Of a stretch of 30,743 nt of DNA, positions 4,422 through 30,731 are shown in pieces. A model generated the notes under the pieces. It was not told where the DNA came from and did no database searches. It saw nothing but the letters and a program-made list of their open reading frames with translations. This DNA comes from a virus. Each line of letters starts with the position of its first letter. Position 1 is the stretch's first letter. The stretch lies in IMG/VR virus record IMGVR_UViG_3300006922_000113, positions 1-30,743 of that record, one strand, 5' to 3'. Both the position numbers and the translations under genes were made by a program.

Positions 4422-4501
4422 CTGATGATGATATTAAAAAATTACAAAGTGTAATGTTGCTAGCTGTAATTAGCTTAGCCTTGAGAGCCATAGTAATCTA
4501 A
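4418..4501 (+). CDS. Candidate 27-aa small membrane protein
   Basis: ATG at 4418 overlaps the preceding stop as ATGA. The ORF encodes an acidic/basic start (MTDDDIKKLQS) and then a hydrophobic helix (VMLLAVISLALRAIVI) before a TAA at 4499-4501. The ATGA overlap implies coupled translation, since no independent strong SD is present (only AGAAG). The end overlaps the 3' end of the convergent gene at 4475 by 27 bases. It may be a small accessory to the membrane coiled-coil protein, but an ORF this short could also occur by chance. Confidence 0.35.
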   Translation: MTDDDIKKLQSVMLLAVISLALRAIVI

Positions 4502-4918
4502 GTACTGATTATATTCTTCAGGACTCATATCAGCGCTGTACCCCATAGATTCTTGCGGATCCATAGGCATAGCATAGTCCATAGCTCCAGGTGCTGAGTA
4601 ACCCATCATAGCAGCTTGAGGATCTTGCATAGATCTGGCTAGGTTTATGTAACCCATAATTTCTTCAGGACTCATGTCACTTAGCATCTCTTTACCACCA
4701 TCTAGCATATTATCTAAAGTAGAAGGCTCTTCTCTGGAAGCCCGCATACCTGCGACACCTGCTCCTAAAGCACCTAGTCCCAAAGCTACTCTACCGCCTC
4801 TAGATTTGGGTATAAGTCTTTTAAGAAAAGCAGTTTTAATATGTGGTTGATTACCATCTAAAGCTGCTTGAGCTCCTAAGGCACTAAAAAAATTAATAAA
4901 ATTAGCTACTTTTTGCAT
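4475..4918 (-). CDS. Protein with K-x-A leader, glycine-zipper segment and Met/Tyr repeats
   Basis: AAGGAG sits seven bases upstream of the ATG. Residues 1-30 form a leader with KVA (3-5) and KTA (28-30), followed by FLKRLIPKSRGGR. A Gly/Ala-rich segment follows at about residues 44-57 (ALGLGALGAGVAGM). The acidic C-terminal half contains a repeated DMSPEE block (EIMGYI, then YNQYL) and three MGYS or DYAM-type Met-Gly/Tyr motifs. The K-x-A/FLK junction matches the protein at 2468-2851. I infer a virion protein processed at KTA. No family is recognised. Confidence 0.7.
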   Translation of the reverse strand: MQKVANFINFFSALGAQAALDGNQPHIKTAFLKRLIPKSRGGRVALGLGALGAGVAGMRASREEPSTLDNMLDGGKEMLSDMSPEEIMGYINLARSMQDPQAAMMGYSAPGAMDYAMPMDPQESMGYSADMSPEEYNQYLDYYGSQG

Positions 4919-5623: not shown

Positions 5624-6121
5624 TTAACCTCTTGCGGCTCTTCGCTCTAACGCTTTAACTAAAGCGGGCCTAGCGGCTAATCCAGCAATAGCTCCTAGGC
5701 TAGAACCTAGAAATTTATTGTCATCATCGCTTAAAGCATACCCCAAACCAGCACCCGCAATAAGAGGTAAACCTCTAGGTATCGCTAAGTGGGCAGGGAC
5801 TTTCTTTGCTAGATTTTGAGTAATATTCTTAGTAGTTGATGCAGCTAAATTTTTAGGTGCTCTACTAAATAAGTTGCGTAACGCCGAAGTAGTTCCCATA
5901 AAGCCCCCCGTAGCTTTAGCTCCAGAAAACATACCAGCACCTCCAGCGCCTAAAGCAGCGGGCAAACCCATACCGGTAGCCAAAGCAATAGGTATAGCAA
6001 GAGCTCCCCCTAATAGAGCACCTTTACCTGCTCCTTTTAAGCCTCCCGTAGCAGTAGCCGCTAACCTTTTAAGTATATTGGCCTGCTTTACCATAGCTTC
6101 GATATCTGTAGTAGAATTCAT
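5624..6121 (-). CDS. Glycine-zipper membrane protein with short K-x-A leader
   Basis: I take ATG at 6121 as the start. AGGTG lies seven bases upstream, and the alternative GTG at 6130 would use part of that SD. The leader of about 14 residues ends in KQA and is followed by NILKRLAATATGG. Residues about 28-65 form a long Gly/Ala zipper (GAGKGALLGGALAIPIAL), with a second hydrophobic Gly stretch near residues 118-130 (GLPLIAGAGLGYAL). Glycine-zipper helices are typical of membrane-inserting or pore-forming peptides. The gene heads a minus-strand run (5624, 4931, 4475) and has its own candidate promoter at 6159-6187. The function is unknown; an ejection-protein role is inferred. Confidence 0.7.
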   Translation of the reverse strand: MNSTTDIEAMVKQANILKRLAATATGGLKGAGKGALLGGALAIPIALATGMGLPAALGAGGAGMFSGAKATGGFMGTTSALRNLFSRAPKNLAASTTKNITQNLAKKVPAHLAIPRGLPLIAGAGLGYALSDDDNKFLGSSLGAIAGLAARPALVKALERRAARG

Positions 6122-6142
6122 ATAAAGCACCTGTATTAAGTA

Positions 6143-25749: not shown

Positions 25750-26898
25750 TTAAGCGCCTACGCTCTTAAATCCAGAAAGTTTAATAACACCTTTAGTGTT
25801 ACCAATACCAATTCCAGGAGAAGAGTAAGACCAGAACTCAATCATATCAGCTTCTTGCTTAATGAATAGAGTAGCGTCTTGTAGAAGGAAGAAGTTACCG
25901 AGGTAGTTCTCAGGAGCAAACAAGTAGATTACGTTATCAGGAATAATGTCATTCTTGATAGTAGTAATTACAGGTACACCAAAGAGCTTATCTTCGCCTT
26001 CAAGACCGTTGTCATAGTGACGAGAAACAATGTCGTTACCAACATCGTTATAGTCAAATTTAAGAGCTTCCATGAAGGTAGTCTTGCTCATAAGCATTTT
26101 ACCGATAGGAAGTTTCTTAGCAGTCATAGCTTGGAACAACTGTGCGATAAGTTCTTTGCTAAGAGGTGCTTGTGCTCCAAGATCGAACTTAGAACCACTA
26201 ATTTCAGTAGCTCCTCCAGCATCACGTTCTGCAGCCCTAGCCACAAAGTTGTTACCATTGAGAAGTTGTTCTCCAGTAAACTGAGTTGCTCCTAGATTAC
26301 CAGTTAGATTTGCACCTACTGCTGAATCTGCAAGAGGTAAGAACTCTACTCCGCCAAAAGAGGTTACATTATCACCATCAATAGAAGCAGCTCCGTCACT
26401 GGAGCGTTTATCTAAAGTAGATCCTGCATCATCTAAAGCAGCTTCAATAGTTTCAATGAACTTTTGATCTTCTACGTCAGCCATATCTTTAACTGAGTTG
26501 TCAGTTAAGATTTTGCGGATGTCGTTTTGGTAAGTAAGAAGTTCGAACTTGCTCTTCATGAAATGTTGTGATTCAACTTTTCCGAAGAATACTGAGTAAC
26601 GAGGTCCACGGAAGAAAGTACGTTGTCCAGATCCTTTGAAAGTTACGAAAGTAGCTGTTGAATCAGGCTCTTTTTCGATGATTTTCTTAGGTTGATCTGT
26701 GTGCTCGTCACGATCGATCTCGTCTGGGCTAAGCTCAATAGGTTGCAAGATTTCTCGTGCAAAGCTTTCTTGGCGTAGCTTTGATCTAATGAACCGACTA
26801 CCTTCGTCAGCTGCTTCTTTTACTCGTCCTTCGTCCAATTTACGGACAAAGCTTTGATTAATAAACTGCGCACTTAGGCGCTCACGCTCTGTATTCAT
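25750..26898 (-). CDS. Major capsid protein
   Basis: The 382-residue protein has the layout of HK97-fold major capsid proteins. A charged helical N-terminal arm (residues 1-75) is followed by a core, then an A-domain region and a closing beta region. The closing segments are typical (KLFGVPVITTIKNDIIPDNV, APENYLGNFFLLQDATLFIK, IGIGNTKGVIKLSGF). A KEA tripeptide at residues 27-29 of the arm may be the maturation cut. Codons for Arg and Ile near both ends are mostly CGN and ATT, unlike several neighbours that use AGA/AGG/ATA, which fits very high expression. AAGGAG precedes the ATG. A terminator follows. Confidence 0.93.
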   Translation of the reverse strand: MNTERERLSAQFINQSFVRKLDEGRVKEAADEGSRFIRSKLRQESFAREILQPIELSPDEIDRDEHTDQPKKIIEKEPDSTATFVTFKGSGQRTFFRGPRYSVFFGKVESQHFMKSKFELLTYQNDIRKILTDNSVKDMADVEDQKFIETIEAALDDAGSTLDKRSSDGAASIDGDNVTSFGGVEFLPLADSAVGANLTGNLGATQFTGEQLLNGNNFVARAAERDAGGATEISGSKFDLGAQAPLSKELIAQLFQAMTAKKLPIGKMLMSKTTFMEALKFDYNDVGNDIVSRHYDNGLEGEDKLFGVPVITTIKNDIIPDNVIYLFAPENYLGNFFLLQDATLFIKQEADMIEFWSYSSPGIGIGNTKGVIKLSGFKSVGA

Positions 26899-26922
26899 GT
26901 GTTTTCTCCTTAGTGCGAGTTA

Positions 26923-27477
26923 TTAGTGTACGTATACGTCAATAGTATTATCTGCAGAATTTACAGCCATAACAGTAGCAACAATTCCAGATCTATTAGT
27001 AATTTCAGTAGTATTAACATCATTAGCAACTTCACCACTGGCTGGGAAACCTACGGTTGCTACGTACTCTGAAAGCTGGTTAGAAACAACTTTTAGCTGA
27101 TCGCCTACTGTAAAAGTACTAGCTGCGGCTGCTAAACATACAACGGTGTTTCCATCTGCATCTTTGTAGTTTTGAGGTACTCTAACCATGTATCCACCGC
27201 CGAGAAGGCAGGTAACTCTATGAGAGAACCTAGAAGAGTAGTCATCAGCGCCTTCAATAACAAGATAGCACTTAGTATCAAACGCACTAGAAGCAGCAGC
27301 GTCGTCAGTTTTCATAGTACCATCATTAGTGCTAGCTAGTTTTACCCAGGTACCTGCGGCATGTGGGTGAGTCCATCCGGATTGGTTTCCAGAAGCCCCG
27401 ATAATAAAATCTTCTTGTACAGCAGACCCATTAGGCCAGCCTCTTAGAATATCAAATTTAGATGTTAAAGCAACCAT
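26923..27477 (-). CDS. Capsid decoration/stabilising protein candidate
   Basis: The 184-residue, Ala/Gly/Ser/Thr-rich, beta-rich protein lies directly upstream of the capsid gene with AGGAG before its ATG. Segments such as GWTHPHAAGTWVKLAST and GDQLKVVSNQLSEYVATVGF resemble small beta-barrel head proteins. Genes in this place commonly encode capsid decoration proteins. The role is inferred from position and fold type. Confidence 0.7.
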   Translation of the reverse strand: MVALTSKFDILRGWPNGSAVQEDFIIGASGNQSGWTHPHAAGTWVKLASTNDGTMKTDDAAASSAFDTKCYLVIEGADDYSSRFSHRVTCLLGGGYMVRVPQNYKDADGNTVVCLAAAASTFTVGDQLKVVSNQLSEYVATVGFPASGEVANDVNTTEITNRSGIVATVMAVNSADNTIDVYVH

Positions 27478-27503
27478 GGCTTTTTCTCCTATAAATTATT
27501 TGT

Positions 27504-27848
27504 TTAACTTAAAATCCAATTAGCAAAATCACGATCAGCTCTATTAGAAGAACTAACCTTACCGTCTAGACCAGCAGTCTTGACAGTGCCAGAAGCACCC
27601 ATGCTAGGAGCTTCAGCTCCAGCCAAGCCACTAAGCATAGTTAAGACAGATTCGTCTACACCAGCTAGTTTGCTTTGAAGATCTTCTGGATCATCTCCAG
27701 TAATAAAGCTTAGCTTTTCAACTACCGGAGTTAGTTGCTCTTTACGCTTAGCTTCTTTAATAGTACTTAGCTCTTGCTCTAATTCAGATTTCTCTTCAGC
27801 AATAGCGTCAAGTACATCAGCTACTTTCATTAAAAAGTGATTACTCAT
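27504..27848 (-). CDS. Head-region coiled-coil protein with K-x-A motifs, 114 aa
   Basis: An N-terminal helix (residues 8-40, LDAIAEEKSELEQELSTIKE) is coiled-coil-like. K-x-A tripeptides occur at 8-10 (KVA), 31-33 (KEA) and 90-92 (KTA, followed by GLDGK). The linker near residue 80 is Gly/Ser-rich. Small helical proteins in this place can act as scaffold components. The ATG follows the stop of the 47-residue gene by four bases. No family is recognised. Confidence 0.65.
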   Translation of the reverse strand: MSNHFLMKVADVLDAIAEEKSELEQELSTIKEAKRKEQLTPVVEKLSFITGDDPEDLQSKLAGVDESVLTMLSGLAGAEAPSMGASGTVKTAGLDGKVSSSNRADRDFANWILS

Positions 27849-27852
27849 AATA

Positions 27853-27996
27853 TTAATCCTCTAACTTTCGTCTAAGTAATTCTAGACCTGTGGCTGCAAC
27901 AACCAAGTTAGCGGTCTTCTCTCGCTTAGTGGCTTCGAGATCCTGAGCATATTTACGAAGTTGTTGAGCAACTACTTTAATTTTTTTAGTATCCAT
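27853..27996 (-). CDS. 47-aa helical protein in the head cluster
   Basis: AGGAG sits six bases before an ATG at 27996. The 47-codon frame ends TAA four bases before the next start and fills an apparent gap. It encodes a basic amphipathic helix (KKIKVVAQQLRKYAQDLEAT) with KTA-N at residues 27-29, followed by a second helix (LVVAATGLELLRRKLED). The SD, exact spacing and K-x-A content shared with neighbours make it convincing. The function is unknown. Confidence 0.75.
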   Translation of the reverse strand: MDTKKIKVVAQQLRKYAQDLEATKREKTANLVVAATGLELLRRKLED

Positions 27997-27997
27997 T

Positions 27998-28204
27998 CTA
28001 CTCTCCTATAAAATCAAGTATGTCTTGATAGGTAGGCTCAGTAGAAACTTCTCGCAAGACAGAAGCGACTTTAGTAAGCGACTTAGCTACATCGCCATTC
28101 AGTGCCTCAATCCGCTCATCTACGCTAGCAACTTTTTCAATAGGCTCATTATGGGCTTCTTCTATAATGTTAGCTAGAGCTTGTTCAAATTTTGATGTAG
28201 CCAT
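27998..28204 (-). CDS. Small head-cluster helical protein with two KVA-S motifs
   Basis: The 68-residue protein is helical and acidic. The sequence KVAS occurs twice (residues 24-27 and 45-48), each at a helix junction. GAGG precedes the ATG. It overlaps or abuts its neighbours and is surely cotranscribed. I read KVAS as candidate cleavage points (see findings). The family is unknown. Confidence 0.7.
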   Translation of the reverse strand: MATSKFEQALANIIEEAHNEPIEKVASVDERIEALNGDVAKSLTKVASVLREVSTEPTYQDILDFIGE

Positions 28205-28212
28205 TTCTACCT

Positions 28213-28572
28213 CTATCCAATATCTTCTAGTTTAAGGGAACGAATATCGTCTGCGCTAAAGCCCACGGTACTTAATCCTGCCTCGCTAGGATTGCTCAGT
28301 GCTTTTAGCAAGTAAGGTACAGTAGCTCCTAAGCCCGCGCCAGCTAAAGCGTAATTTAGATGCTTTCTTTTTTCATCAGATTTACCTGATTTCTTGCCCG
28401 CCATGTAAGCTAAAGGAGCCCCTACTGCAGTAGCTAATGCTATATCGGAAAGAATGCTAGAAGTAGAAGCGGTCTTATTAGAAGCATAGTCTAAAGAAAC
28501 CTCTATTCCATCCGTAGTAGAAGTAGCCGATATCTTACTTAGTAAAAGTTCGTATTGTTTTTGAGCAGACAT
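28213..28572 (-). CDS. Gly/Ala membrane-type protein with KTA-S leader
   Basis: The first 35 residues end in NKTA, followed by STSSIL. A Gly/Ala helix (residues about 40-58, DIALATAVGAPLAYMAG) and a second one (LNYALAGAGLGATVPYLL) flank a basic stretch (KKSGKSDEKRKH). The design (leader, K-x-A, paired Gly/Ala helices) matches the left-arm proteins at 5624 and 4475. It may be packaged in the head. The SD is weak (GGGAT), suggesting coupling to the upstream gene. Confidence 0.7.
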   Translation of the reverse strand: MSAQKQYELLLSKISATSTTDGIEVSLDYASNKTASTSSILSDIALATAVGAPLAYMAGKKSGKSDEKRKHLNYALAGAGLGATVPYLLKALSNPSEAGLSTVGFSADDIRSLKLEDIG

Positions 28573-28578
28573 TTATAG

Positions 28579-29190
28579 TTATCCCAGATTAGATAAGATA
28601 TTAATTGCGTGAGAGTATCCTGTTTCTGCTCTAGATTCTGCAGCTACCTTAATCATTTGTTTAGCTTCTTGATAACCTGCTGTAATAGCTTCAGAGGCTA
28701 TTTTTTCCATAGCAGCTTCTTCTTCAGCTTGAGTATGGCCAGCAGTTTTTTCAGAAACATTTTGATAGCCAGTAGCGAAGGCTTCATTAGCAAGACCTTG
28801 TAACTGGTTAGTCGTCTCTCGGTAACCCAGTTCCATAGCTTGTTTTAATAACACTTCGTCCACGTCCACAGCGCCGCCAAAACTAGCTACTTTGACCCCA
28901 TTAGCATCATGTTCAGTCATTCTAGCTAAGAACCCATCGCAGACCGCTGCTCCGTACATCTCAGCTTCTTTTACTAAAGCTAATTGCTCGGCATCCGCTA
29001 GTCGTTGGGCTATCTTTATTAGATCTTCAGAAGGTTCAGATGCCTGAGCTACGCTCGCTGTTTTGTCCATAGAAAGCGCCTCTTCCAAAGCTCTATCAAG
29101 CTTGTTAGAGTGAGACTCGGATACGTGAGCTACCTTTTCAGTAGTAGCAGTATCGTTAGAAAGGGCGTCTAAAATTGAGGATAATTCCAT
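28579..29190 (-). CDS. Core/scaffold-like protein with nine K-x-A motifs
   Basis: The 203-residue acidic helical protein follows the prohead protease gene. It contains nine K-x-A tripeptides (residues 19, 43, 59, 74, 100, 116, 148, 163, 181). It also has repeated x-GY units (residues 122, 141, 172, 191; for example FATGYQNVSEKTAG and ITAGYQEAKQM). In many phages the gene between protease and capsid is the scaffold or core, which the protease degrades during maturation. The repeated motif fits that behaviour if K-x-A is the cut site. GGAG precedes the ATG by seven bases. The assignment is by position and composition. Confidence 0.7.
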   Translation of the reverse strand: MELSSILDALSNDTATTEKVAHVSESHSNKLDRALEEALSMDKTASVAQASEPSEDLIKIAQRLADAEQLALVKEAEMYGAAVCDGFLARMTEHDANGVKVASFGGAVDVDEVLLKQAMELGYRETTNQLQGLANEAFATGYQNVSEKTAGHTQAEEEAAMEKIASEAITAGYQEAKQMIKVAAESRAETGYSHAINILSNLG

Positions 29191-29229
29191 TTCAGTACTC
29201 CATTAGGGTGTAATTAGATTTCATAATAA

Positions 29230-29258
29230 ATAGTAATAAACATAAAGCCCGTAACCAA
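29230..29258 (-). promoter_or_regulatory. Weak candidate promoter before core/capsid genes
   Basis: On the minus strand TTGGTT (29253-29258) lies 17 bases from TACTAT (29230-29235), in the 71-base gap after the protease stop. It would give the core and capsid genes a separate start. The hexamers match three and four consensus positions, so this is weak. Confidence 0.3.
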
Positions 29259-29261
29259 TAA

Positions 29262-30731
29262 TTAAATATGGTTTAAGGCCAATACTGTTAGGGCGGTCCA
29301 AGGACGAGACTTACTATCTCTAAGCCCTTCTGTGTCTTGAGACCTAATAGAAGCTAGCTTAGTATATGAAGGGTTGTCAATAGTATCCAGTATAGTAGAT
29401 ATATACACAGCATAACTAATGCTGGCCACTTTATCTAATTCTGGCACAGCAACAGAGCTTCTTGGTAATATGGTGGAGCTAGAACACAGATTCTCGCTAG
29501 AGTTTTTTAAAAATTGAGTAGGTCTAGATAGTAACCAAGCCTCGTCTAAGGATCTAAGCGGTATATATTTAGCAACTTTATCTTGAACCTCAGGATCAAT
29601 AACTTCGGAACCCGTGGGTGCTATATCACTGTATATCAAATCTTCTGCCAAGTCTGGGTATTTAGCCACCATGCTAAATATATCTGATTGTAAGGAGATA
29701 AGATTTGATGCTAGACCTTCAGGAGCTTTTTTACCCACAGCCTTCAAATATACCAAGTCTAAAAATTCCGGGGTAGCTAGAAATATCCCCATATCACTTA
29801 AACTAGAAAGTACTTTAGGTAGGTTTTTCTTACTCAAGTAATCTTTATCTTCATCGTTCAATTCTATAAAAGAATTTTTAAGTTTCGGAACCACTGATTT
29901 AAGCCACTGCTTATTCAAGTAGCTAGAAGGATTACTATCTTCCTTGTTGGAAGTCATACCGATACCTACGCCACTAACCATTTTTTCTATCTCAGCAGCC
30001 TTGTCTAAGTACTTAGACAAGGTTACTCTAGCGGCTAGTTTCTCCGCTAACCACGCAGAACTAGCTCCCAACTCTCTTGAGTTAGCCACTTTTTTTAGCA
30101 TATAACCGGTTTTATCTGCCGGCCGCCATACTATAGATATATCGAAAAAATTAGGCTTAGGGTTGTACGCAGCCACTACCCTTCCATCTGGGTAGATTTT
30201 ATTGAGTTCATTTTTTAGGTGTTTACAGTACTGCGCACGAGTAGGTGCTTTGTTACCGCATATACTACAAACATCATACTTAATCTTACACCCCATTGAT
30301 ACGGCTACACTGTTACCGGAATTAATCTTAGTAACTATGTCTGGAGCTTTACCATTATCTATCTCTAAGACTAGCTCTACCCTATGCATATCATCGTTGT
30401 AAAAACTTTTAATCACTTTACCAAAGCTTTTAGCAGGGTCCTTGTTGACGTGAGACTTAAAAACATGAGCGTTGGTTTCAAAAGTGTGGTGATGCTCTTT
30501 CAACTCTTTTTCTTCAAAAGCATCTCCGTTCCTATTAGGCCCATAAAACTCACTAGCGCCCATAGCTAAAACTAGTATATAAGTCTTACCTGTTACGGGA
30601 GTAACCCTAGTAGCCCAGTCAGACGCAACAGAAGCAGTTTTGCTATTGAAGTCTATAAGTTGAACAGTAGGTTCGAGCCCATTAGACCCTCTAAAATAGT
30701 CATCTACTTCTAGTATTTTATTTAAACTCAC
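29262..30731 (-). CDS. Prohead maturation protease with zinc-knuckle insert and long C-terminal extension
   Basis: The start is GTG at 30731; an in-frame TGA at the right edge and GAGGTAAGG between them support it. Residues about 45-205 carry the phage head-maturation protease pattern. Elements visible are GASEFYGPNRNGDAF, then His89 and His94 in AHVFKSHVNKDPAKSFGKV, then Ser145 in NSVAVSMG, and a closing NFFDISIVW. The likely pair is one of these His plus Ser145. A C-x2-C-x10-C-x-H knuckle (Cys155, 158, 169, His171) follows the Ser. At 489 residues it is about twice the length of typical proteases such as T4 gp21. The extra 280 residues are helical with many K-x-A sites (such as KTAS at 31-34, KVAN at 214-217, DKVAS later). 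It processes scaffold and capsid proteins inside the prohead. Confidence 0.85.
   Translation of the reverse strand: MSLNKILEVDDYFRGSNGLEPTVQLIDFNSKTASVASDWATRVTPVTGKTYILVLAMGASEFYGPNRNGDAFEEKELKEHHHTFETNAHVFKSHVNKDPAKSFGKVIKSFYNDDMHRVELVLEIDNGKAPDIVTKINSGNSVAVSMGCKIKYDVCSICGNKAPTRAQYCKHLKNELNKIYPDGRVVAAYNPKPNFFDISIVWRPADKTGYMLKKVANSRELGASSAWLAEKLAARVTLSKYLDKAAEIEKMVSGVGIGMTSNKEDSNPSSYLNKQWLKSVVPKLKNSFIELNDEDKDYLSKKNLPKVLSSLSDMGIFLATPEFLDLVYLKAVGKKAPEGLASNLISLQSDIFSMVAKYPDLAEDLIYSDIAPTGSEVIDPEVQDKVAKYIPLRSLDEAWLLSRPTQFLKNSSENLCSSSTILPRSSVAVPELDKVASISYAVYISTILDTIDNPSYTKLASIRSQDTEGLRDSKSRPWTALTVLALNHI

Follow-up and report, generated by a model that had tools for sequence, protein, structure and literature searches.

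The cleavage specificity has been established for only a few prohead proteases, and in the best-characterized cases the motif ends in Glu. The rule followed in bacteriophage T4 is [I/L]-x-E. SPN3US gp245, a protease of the phiKZ type, cuts A-x-E↓S (PMC10052503; the arrow marks the bond cut). In herpesviruses, the protease frees itself from the scaffold (PMC4498786), and an assay substrate of the human cytomegalovirus (HCMV) enzyme contains the sequence ...Asn-Ala-Ser-Ser... (PMC12632753). The capsid protein of phage G, gp27, has 282 residues, of which 255 were found in the mature form by N-terminal sequencing (Hua et al., PMC5646251), so that it is cut after Ala27 (A-L-A↓Q). The present analysis concerns a 30.7-kb IMG/VR fragment of an uncultured large phage (IMGVR_UViG_3300006922_000113; 30,743 nucleotides, referred to as the window), in which an earlier note had taken a recurring Lys-x-Ala tripeptide (K-x-A) of the head proteins for a candidate cleavage motif of the maturation protease. 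The results indicate that a T4-type prohead protease very probably recognizes K-x-A as the P3-P2-P1 core of its sites and cuts after the Ala.

The head cluster of the window lies on the minus strand and encodes, in order, the protease, a 203-residue core-like protein, four small proteins, a 184-residue protein and the capsid protein (Table 1). A 147-kb record, G001, is identical to the window at the protease, the core protein and the capsid protein.

Enrichment of K-x-A in the head proteins

The number of K-x-A expected by chance was computed from the composition of each protein. The core protein has nine K-x-A, compared to 1.89 expected (p=0.0002), and 9 of its 11 lysines fall within the motif. 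The 489-residue protease has eight (3.5 expected, p=0.016) and the eight head proteins of the window together have 29 (11.9 expected, p=2e-5), while the tail and fibre proteins, with 5,635 residues, have 20 where 19.3 were expected. The counts confirmed the sites that had been listed earlier, that is, the nine in the core protein, the several in the protease, KVAS twice in the 68-residue protein, KTAN, KTAS and KTAG in the 47-, 119- and 114-residue proteins, respectively, and a K-x-A, KEA, at residues 27-29 of the capsid protein. The four-residue form given in the title of the earlier note, K-[T/V/E/I/Q]-A-[S/N/G], is too narrow; S, N or G follows only four of the nine core sites, so this form covers less than half of them. 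The tripeptide had been called scarce in tail and fibre proteins. It is not enriched there, but neither is it depleted, and scarce therefore means chance level.

Because K-x-A had originally been picked by eye, the bias was removed by a blind ranking of every pair, in which all 2,000 pairs of the form a-(0 to 4 residues)-b were ordered by their excess over each protein's own composition. The pair K.A (Lys and Ala with one residue between them) ranked first of the 2,000 in the head proteins of the window. It also ranked first in the head proteins of G001 (51 versus 25.1 expected), Salmonella phage Arash (46 versus 21.3), Vibrio phage D69 (51 versus 22.4), mycobacteriophage I3 (21 versus 9.5) and the contigs G005, G006 and G012. 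Where tail genes or the other genes of a genome were tested, its rank was in the hundreds or lower. When the core protein was omitted, K.A was still first in seven of the seven closer phages, and in the distant contig L007 it was second, behind L.K, a pair that corresponds to P5 and P3 of this motif.

The positive control consisted of T4 genes 67, 68, 21, 22, 23 and 24, where I.E ranked first and L.E fourth; without genes 23 and 24 the two pairs ranked first and second. Since the blind test recovered the known rule of T4, it can be used as a predictor of specificity. In the head proteins of the window, the same test placed I.E, L.E and A.E, the last being the phiKZ/SPN3US specificity, outside the top eight pairs. 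The enrichment across the genome and its relatives, which the earlier note had proposed as a check, was thus found in the window, in G001 and in further relatives.

The extended motif and conservation of the sites

The residues flanking 122 K-x-A from the head proteins of Arash, D69 and G001 were compared with those flanking 219 K-x-A from the non-head genes of G001. P5, two residues before the Lys, was L, M, I, V or F at 89 of the 122 head sites and at 80 of the 219 others (p=8e-11), while Ser occupied P1', directly after the Ala, at 45 and 23 sites, respectively (p=1e-8). The full motif is hydrophobic-x-Lys-x-Ala, with Ser, Ala or Gly preferred at P1'. Fixed residues at P5, P3 and P1 with a free P2 would suit an extended substrate strand rather than the face of a helix.

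Eleven distinct homologues of the core protein, with a mean column identity of 0.44, have 8-15 K-x-A each. At eight of the nine sites the Lys and Ala are conserved at 0.64-1.00 and the middle residue at 0.18-0.91; the position of the ninth, K148, is not kept among the homologues. In the 119-residue protein and at the second site of the 68-residue protein, the conservation of both Lys and Ala is 1.00 and that of the middle residue 0.00, and every homologue of the 114-residue protein has four to five K-x-A. The core proteins of Arash and D69 have no detectable similarity to that of the window; they are encoded at the equivalent gene position and contain 8 and 10 K-x-A, as densely spaced as in the window. 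With nine sites in 203 residues, the core protein of the window has the dense sites throughout that characterize a processed core protein such as T4 gp22.

In the N-terminal arm of the capsid protein, the exceptions to K-[E/Q]-A among 23 aligned sequences are L005 and L007, each of which has KIA at residues 17-19. The predicted mature protein comprises residues 30-382 (353 residues). In a sequence search against solved structures, the capsid protein of I3 matched phage G gp27 only, and a weak match of the window capsid protein was judged to be due to chance.

The protease

A structural model of the protease was built with 18 sequences. Confidence was good for residues ~33-203 and poor for 1-32, 204-287 and 400-489, and the sites K31-T-A and K214-V-A border the folded domain on either side. 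The least conserved of the protease sites, K334 (1/22) and K385 (4/22), are in the better-folded C-terminal part. When residues 43-216 were compared by VIA-align, T4 gp21 was the top match (Z 9.8, root mean square deviation 3.0, 129 residues aligned), followed by the proteases of varicella-zoster virus (Z 9.5), pseudorabies virus (9.1), and herpes simplex virus and HCMV (7-8), against a background of unrelated MCE-fold entries that reached Z 6.3. Foldseek with the whole 489-residue protease gave only weak matches, mostly to MCE domains, with E>0.05. The modelled catalytic domain thus shares the fold of the T4 gp21/herpesvirus protease superfamily.

By analogy, Ser145 is a candidate nucleophile and His94, 51 residues away, a candidate catalytic residue. 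The Ser is followed by a Zn-knuckle-like sequence, C155-x2-C158...C169-x-H171, that is also present in Arash, D69, I3, Skog and phage G. None of the 18 protease members matched the Pfam Peptidase_S77 profile, PF03420, at E<=1; a search with PF03420 across the window found no match, but the controls were equally silent. Pfam searches with the protease and the capsid protein found no family above the cut-off, and the search against solved structures gave no match for the protease. A homologue in phage G, gp19 (E=6e-39), has L-V-K-T-A, L-E-K-V-A-S and L-L-K-I-A-S around its own domain.

In the related contig L007 (6926-9943) the protease gene is split by an intein-like insert, which immediately follows the conserved VSMGC sequence around the putative nucleophile, with Hint and LAGLIDADG matches below the curated cut-offs. 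In the actinobacteriophages I3 (gp103, L034:11950-16176) and Skog (L103:7887-11135) the protease domain heads a protein of 1,082-1,408 residues, which is probably a protease-scaffold fusion like herpesvirus UL26.

Proposed processing and alternatives

The motif, its enrichment, its conservation, its location and the modelled fold of the protease are observed; from these we infer the cutting itself, the bond after Ala and the order of events. The prohead would assemble around a core of the 203-residue protein and small accessory proteins. The protease would cut after the Ala of hydrophobic-x-Lys-x-Ala, with a preference for Ser, Ala or Gly as the next residue, and would free its own domain by predicted cuts after residues 33 and 216. 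The core protein would be chopped into peptides of ~15-32 residues, the small head proteins trimmed and the first 29 residues removed from the capsid protein. The placement of the sites, in the capsid N-arm, all along the core protein and to either side of the protease domain, is as expected of cleavage sites. The idea of a cleavage motif in the earlier note is therefore supported by these positions, by the enrichment and by the conservation of Lys and Ala around a variable middle residue. Its proposal of a new specificity stands with respect to the rules that end in Glu, but Ala before the cut has precedents in the herpesvirus assemblins (Ala-Ser) and in phage G (Ala27).

Several observations weigh against K-x-A as a cleavage site, 1) in G004, K.A ranks only 11, and 54 without the core protein, 2) the more distant protease relatives Alexandra, BcepSauron, JA33, Lauda and GR11A have no K-x-A signal, 3) relatedness among the genomes compared makes the tests less than fully independent, 4) the capsid site of phage G has Ala at P3 and no Lys, and in its head genes K-x-A is only rank 11, 5) the conservation of K214-x-A could be structural and 6) no measured mature N terminus or virion mass spectrometry was found in the literature for this clade. 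The absence of the signal from the five distant relatives limits the rule to one clade, and K-x-A as the rule of the whole protease superfamily was rejected. The phage G cut after Ala27 supports P1 Ala for the protease family and indicates that the Lys rule is not universal.

An unlikely alternative is that the protease and the motif are as described but that the bond is beside the Lys (K↓x or x↓A), or that only the P1 Ala matters and the Lys is a bystander. The phage G site, Ala-Leu-Ala↓Gln, has no Lys, and the bond cannot be placed from sequence alone. However, Ser, Ala and Gly are enriched directly after the Ala, the Lys is conserved as strongly as the Ala, and the P3-x-P1 form is common to T4, SPN3US (PMC10052503) and K-x-A.

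Marginally less likely still, K-x-A might remain uncut and serve helical scaffold proteins as a structural or docking motif, in contact with the inner face of the capsid or with the protease. The core-like proteins are Lys/Ala-rich and largely helical in appearance, and the core protein of Arash, gp223, has an internal repeat, which would copy any motif. However, the P5-P3-P1 spacing (i, i+2, i+4) suits an extended strand rather than the face of a helix, the enrichment exceeds that expected from composition and persists without the core protein, and the motif also occurs in the arm of the capsid protein and flanks the protease domain at either end. Finally, that Lys/Ala-rich proteins such as these yield K-x-A by chance has a negligible probability and was rejected, given the 29 sites where composition predicts 11.9, the first rank among 2,000 pairs, the repetition in relatives with a different core protein and the conservation of the sites.

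The K-x-A cutting rule was not described in the literature searched, which included no paper on Arash and none on Bixzunavirus capsid cleavage. As a predicted specificity, K-x-A is new, precise and testable in a group of large myophages that is uncharacterised but includes the cultured phages Arash and D69, and it predicts the mature N terminus of the capsid protein and a list of processed head proteins. The blind test, having recovered the T4 rule, could be applied to other phage genomes to deduce the specificity of their proteases.

Further features of the locus and its relatives

The features of the head cluster are listed in Table 1.

Table 1. Protease, head-cluster proteins and candidate cleavage sites in the window
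Feature	Position	Strand	Evidence or remarks
Prohead protease, 489 residues, GTG start	29262..30731	-	PHROG head maturation protease match (E=9e-12) and structural model
Protease domain layout: folded catalytic domain ~33-203, low-confidence linker 204-287, then C-terminal extension			Model
His94 codon, candidate catalytic residue	30450..30452	-	>=90% conserved in 18 proteases; role by analogy
Ser145 codon (VSMG), candidate nucleophile	30297..30299	-	Invariant in 18 proteases; role by analogy
Protease K31-T-A33, candidate N-terminal self-cleavage site	30633..30641	-	Directly precedes folded domain; K-x-A in 15/22 homologues
Protease K214-V-A216, candidate C-terminal self-cleavage site	30084..30092	-	Directly behind folded domain; K-x-A in 21/22 homologues
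Protease linker sites K231-L-A and K244-A-A	29994..30041	-	Low-confidence linker; conserved in 11/22 and 13/22
Core/scaffold-like protein, 203 residues	28579..29190	-	Nine K-x-A: K19, 43, 59, 74, 100, 116, 148, 163, 181
119-residue head-cluster protein, K33-T-A-S	28213..28572	-	K and A conserved 5/5, middle residue 0/5
68-residue protein, KVAS at 24 and 45	27998..28204	-	K-x-A in 5/7 and 7/7; middle residue at 45 never matches
47-residue protein, KYAQ at 15, KTAN at 27	27853..27996	-	K-x-A kept in 3/8 (KYAQ) and 8/8 (KTAN)
114-residue protein, K-x-A at 8, 31, 60, 90	27504..27848	-	Conserved in 10/11, 5/11, 6/11, 8/11
Major capsid protein, 382 residues, HK97 fold	25750..26898	-	Foldseek to HK97 heads, best E=6e-8
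Capsid K27-E-A29, candidate maturation site, N-arm	26812..26820	-	K-[E/Q]-A in 21/23 aligned sequences

Well outside the head cluster of Arash, gp242 (L060:24466-25335), a 289-residue protein annotated as structural, has eight K-x-A compared to 0.9 expected, all of them in the form hydrophobic-x-K-x-A, and is a candidate internal processed head protein.

In the window, small proteins encoded at 2468-2851, 4475-4918 and 5624-6130 (minus strand) begin with a common K-x-A-[N/F]-x-[L/I] (KEANFL, KTAFLKRL, KQANILKRL). In most of them, a hydrophobic sequence rich in Gly and Ala comes next, and the proteins look like ejection proteins whose N terminus targets them to the head. Among the Gly/Ala-rich small proteins, 14 of 24 have K-x-A within the first 38 residues (8.7 expected). 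An N-terminal targeting peptide is not claimed, as other genes show a similar excess (34 versus 21.2 expected).

Split multisubunit RNA polymerase genes with Rpb2- and Rpb1-type domains are located just upstream of the head cluster in Arash (L059:30093-34670 and 39441-41261) and D69 (L033:8604-13187). The gene directly downstream of the D69 capsid protein (L033:24771-25433) encodes a long EVEA repeat. In G004, the 181-kb record to which contig L005 belongs, the predicted open reading frames outside the head block contain 995 SS pairs, compared to 515 expected.

Comparison with known systems

The proposed system resembles that of T4 gp21 in the predicted fold of the catalytic domain, the gene order with the core and capsid proteins, the many sites in the core protein and the P3-x-P1 form of the motif, but the residues are Lys-x-Ala rather than Ile/Leu-x-Glu. 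In further contrast to T4 gp21, the window protease has the Zn-knuckle-like insert after the Ser and the long C-terminal extension, and gives no Pfam S77 match. The phiKZ-type phages, including SPN3US, also have large myophage heads, several processed head proteins and a preference for Ser at P1', but P1 is Glu and P3 is Ala, whereas here they are Ala and Lys, respectively.

The herpesvirus assemblins (UL26/UL80) are alike in fold (Z 7-9.5) and in two features that are predicted here, the Ala-Ser bond and the self-release of the domain. Their catalytic triad is Ser-His-His, whereas the candidate residues in the window protease are one Ser and one His, Ser145 and His94. Unlike the system described here, the assemblins have few sites per scaffold and, to our knowledge, no Lys rule at P3. 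Phage G has a protease homologue with L-x-K-x-A at its own ends and a capsid cut with Ala at P1, although the capsid site, A-L-A↓Q, differs.

In a more far-reaching reading, with confidence only a little better than even, a clade of large myophages would have a Zn-knuckle prohead protease with the rule hydrophobic-x-Lys-x-Ala↓Ser, which would unite the T4-style destruction of the core at many sites with the herpesvirus-style Ala↓Ser bond. The rule would also mark some proteins whose genes lie apart from the head cluster, such as Arash gp242, as internal and probably injected components of the head, and the specificity would have drifted across the family, with K-x-A here and A-x-A in the phage G capsid. 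That a T4-like system would cut Ala↓Ser bears on the divergence of the phage and herpesvirus capsid proteases, the proposed system being T4-like in layout and herpes-like in the bond.

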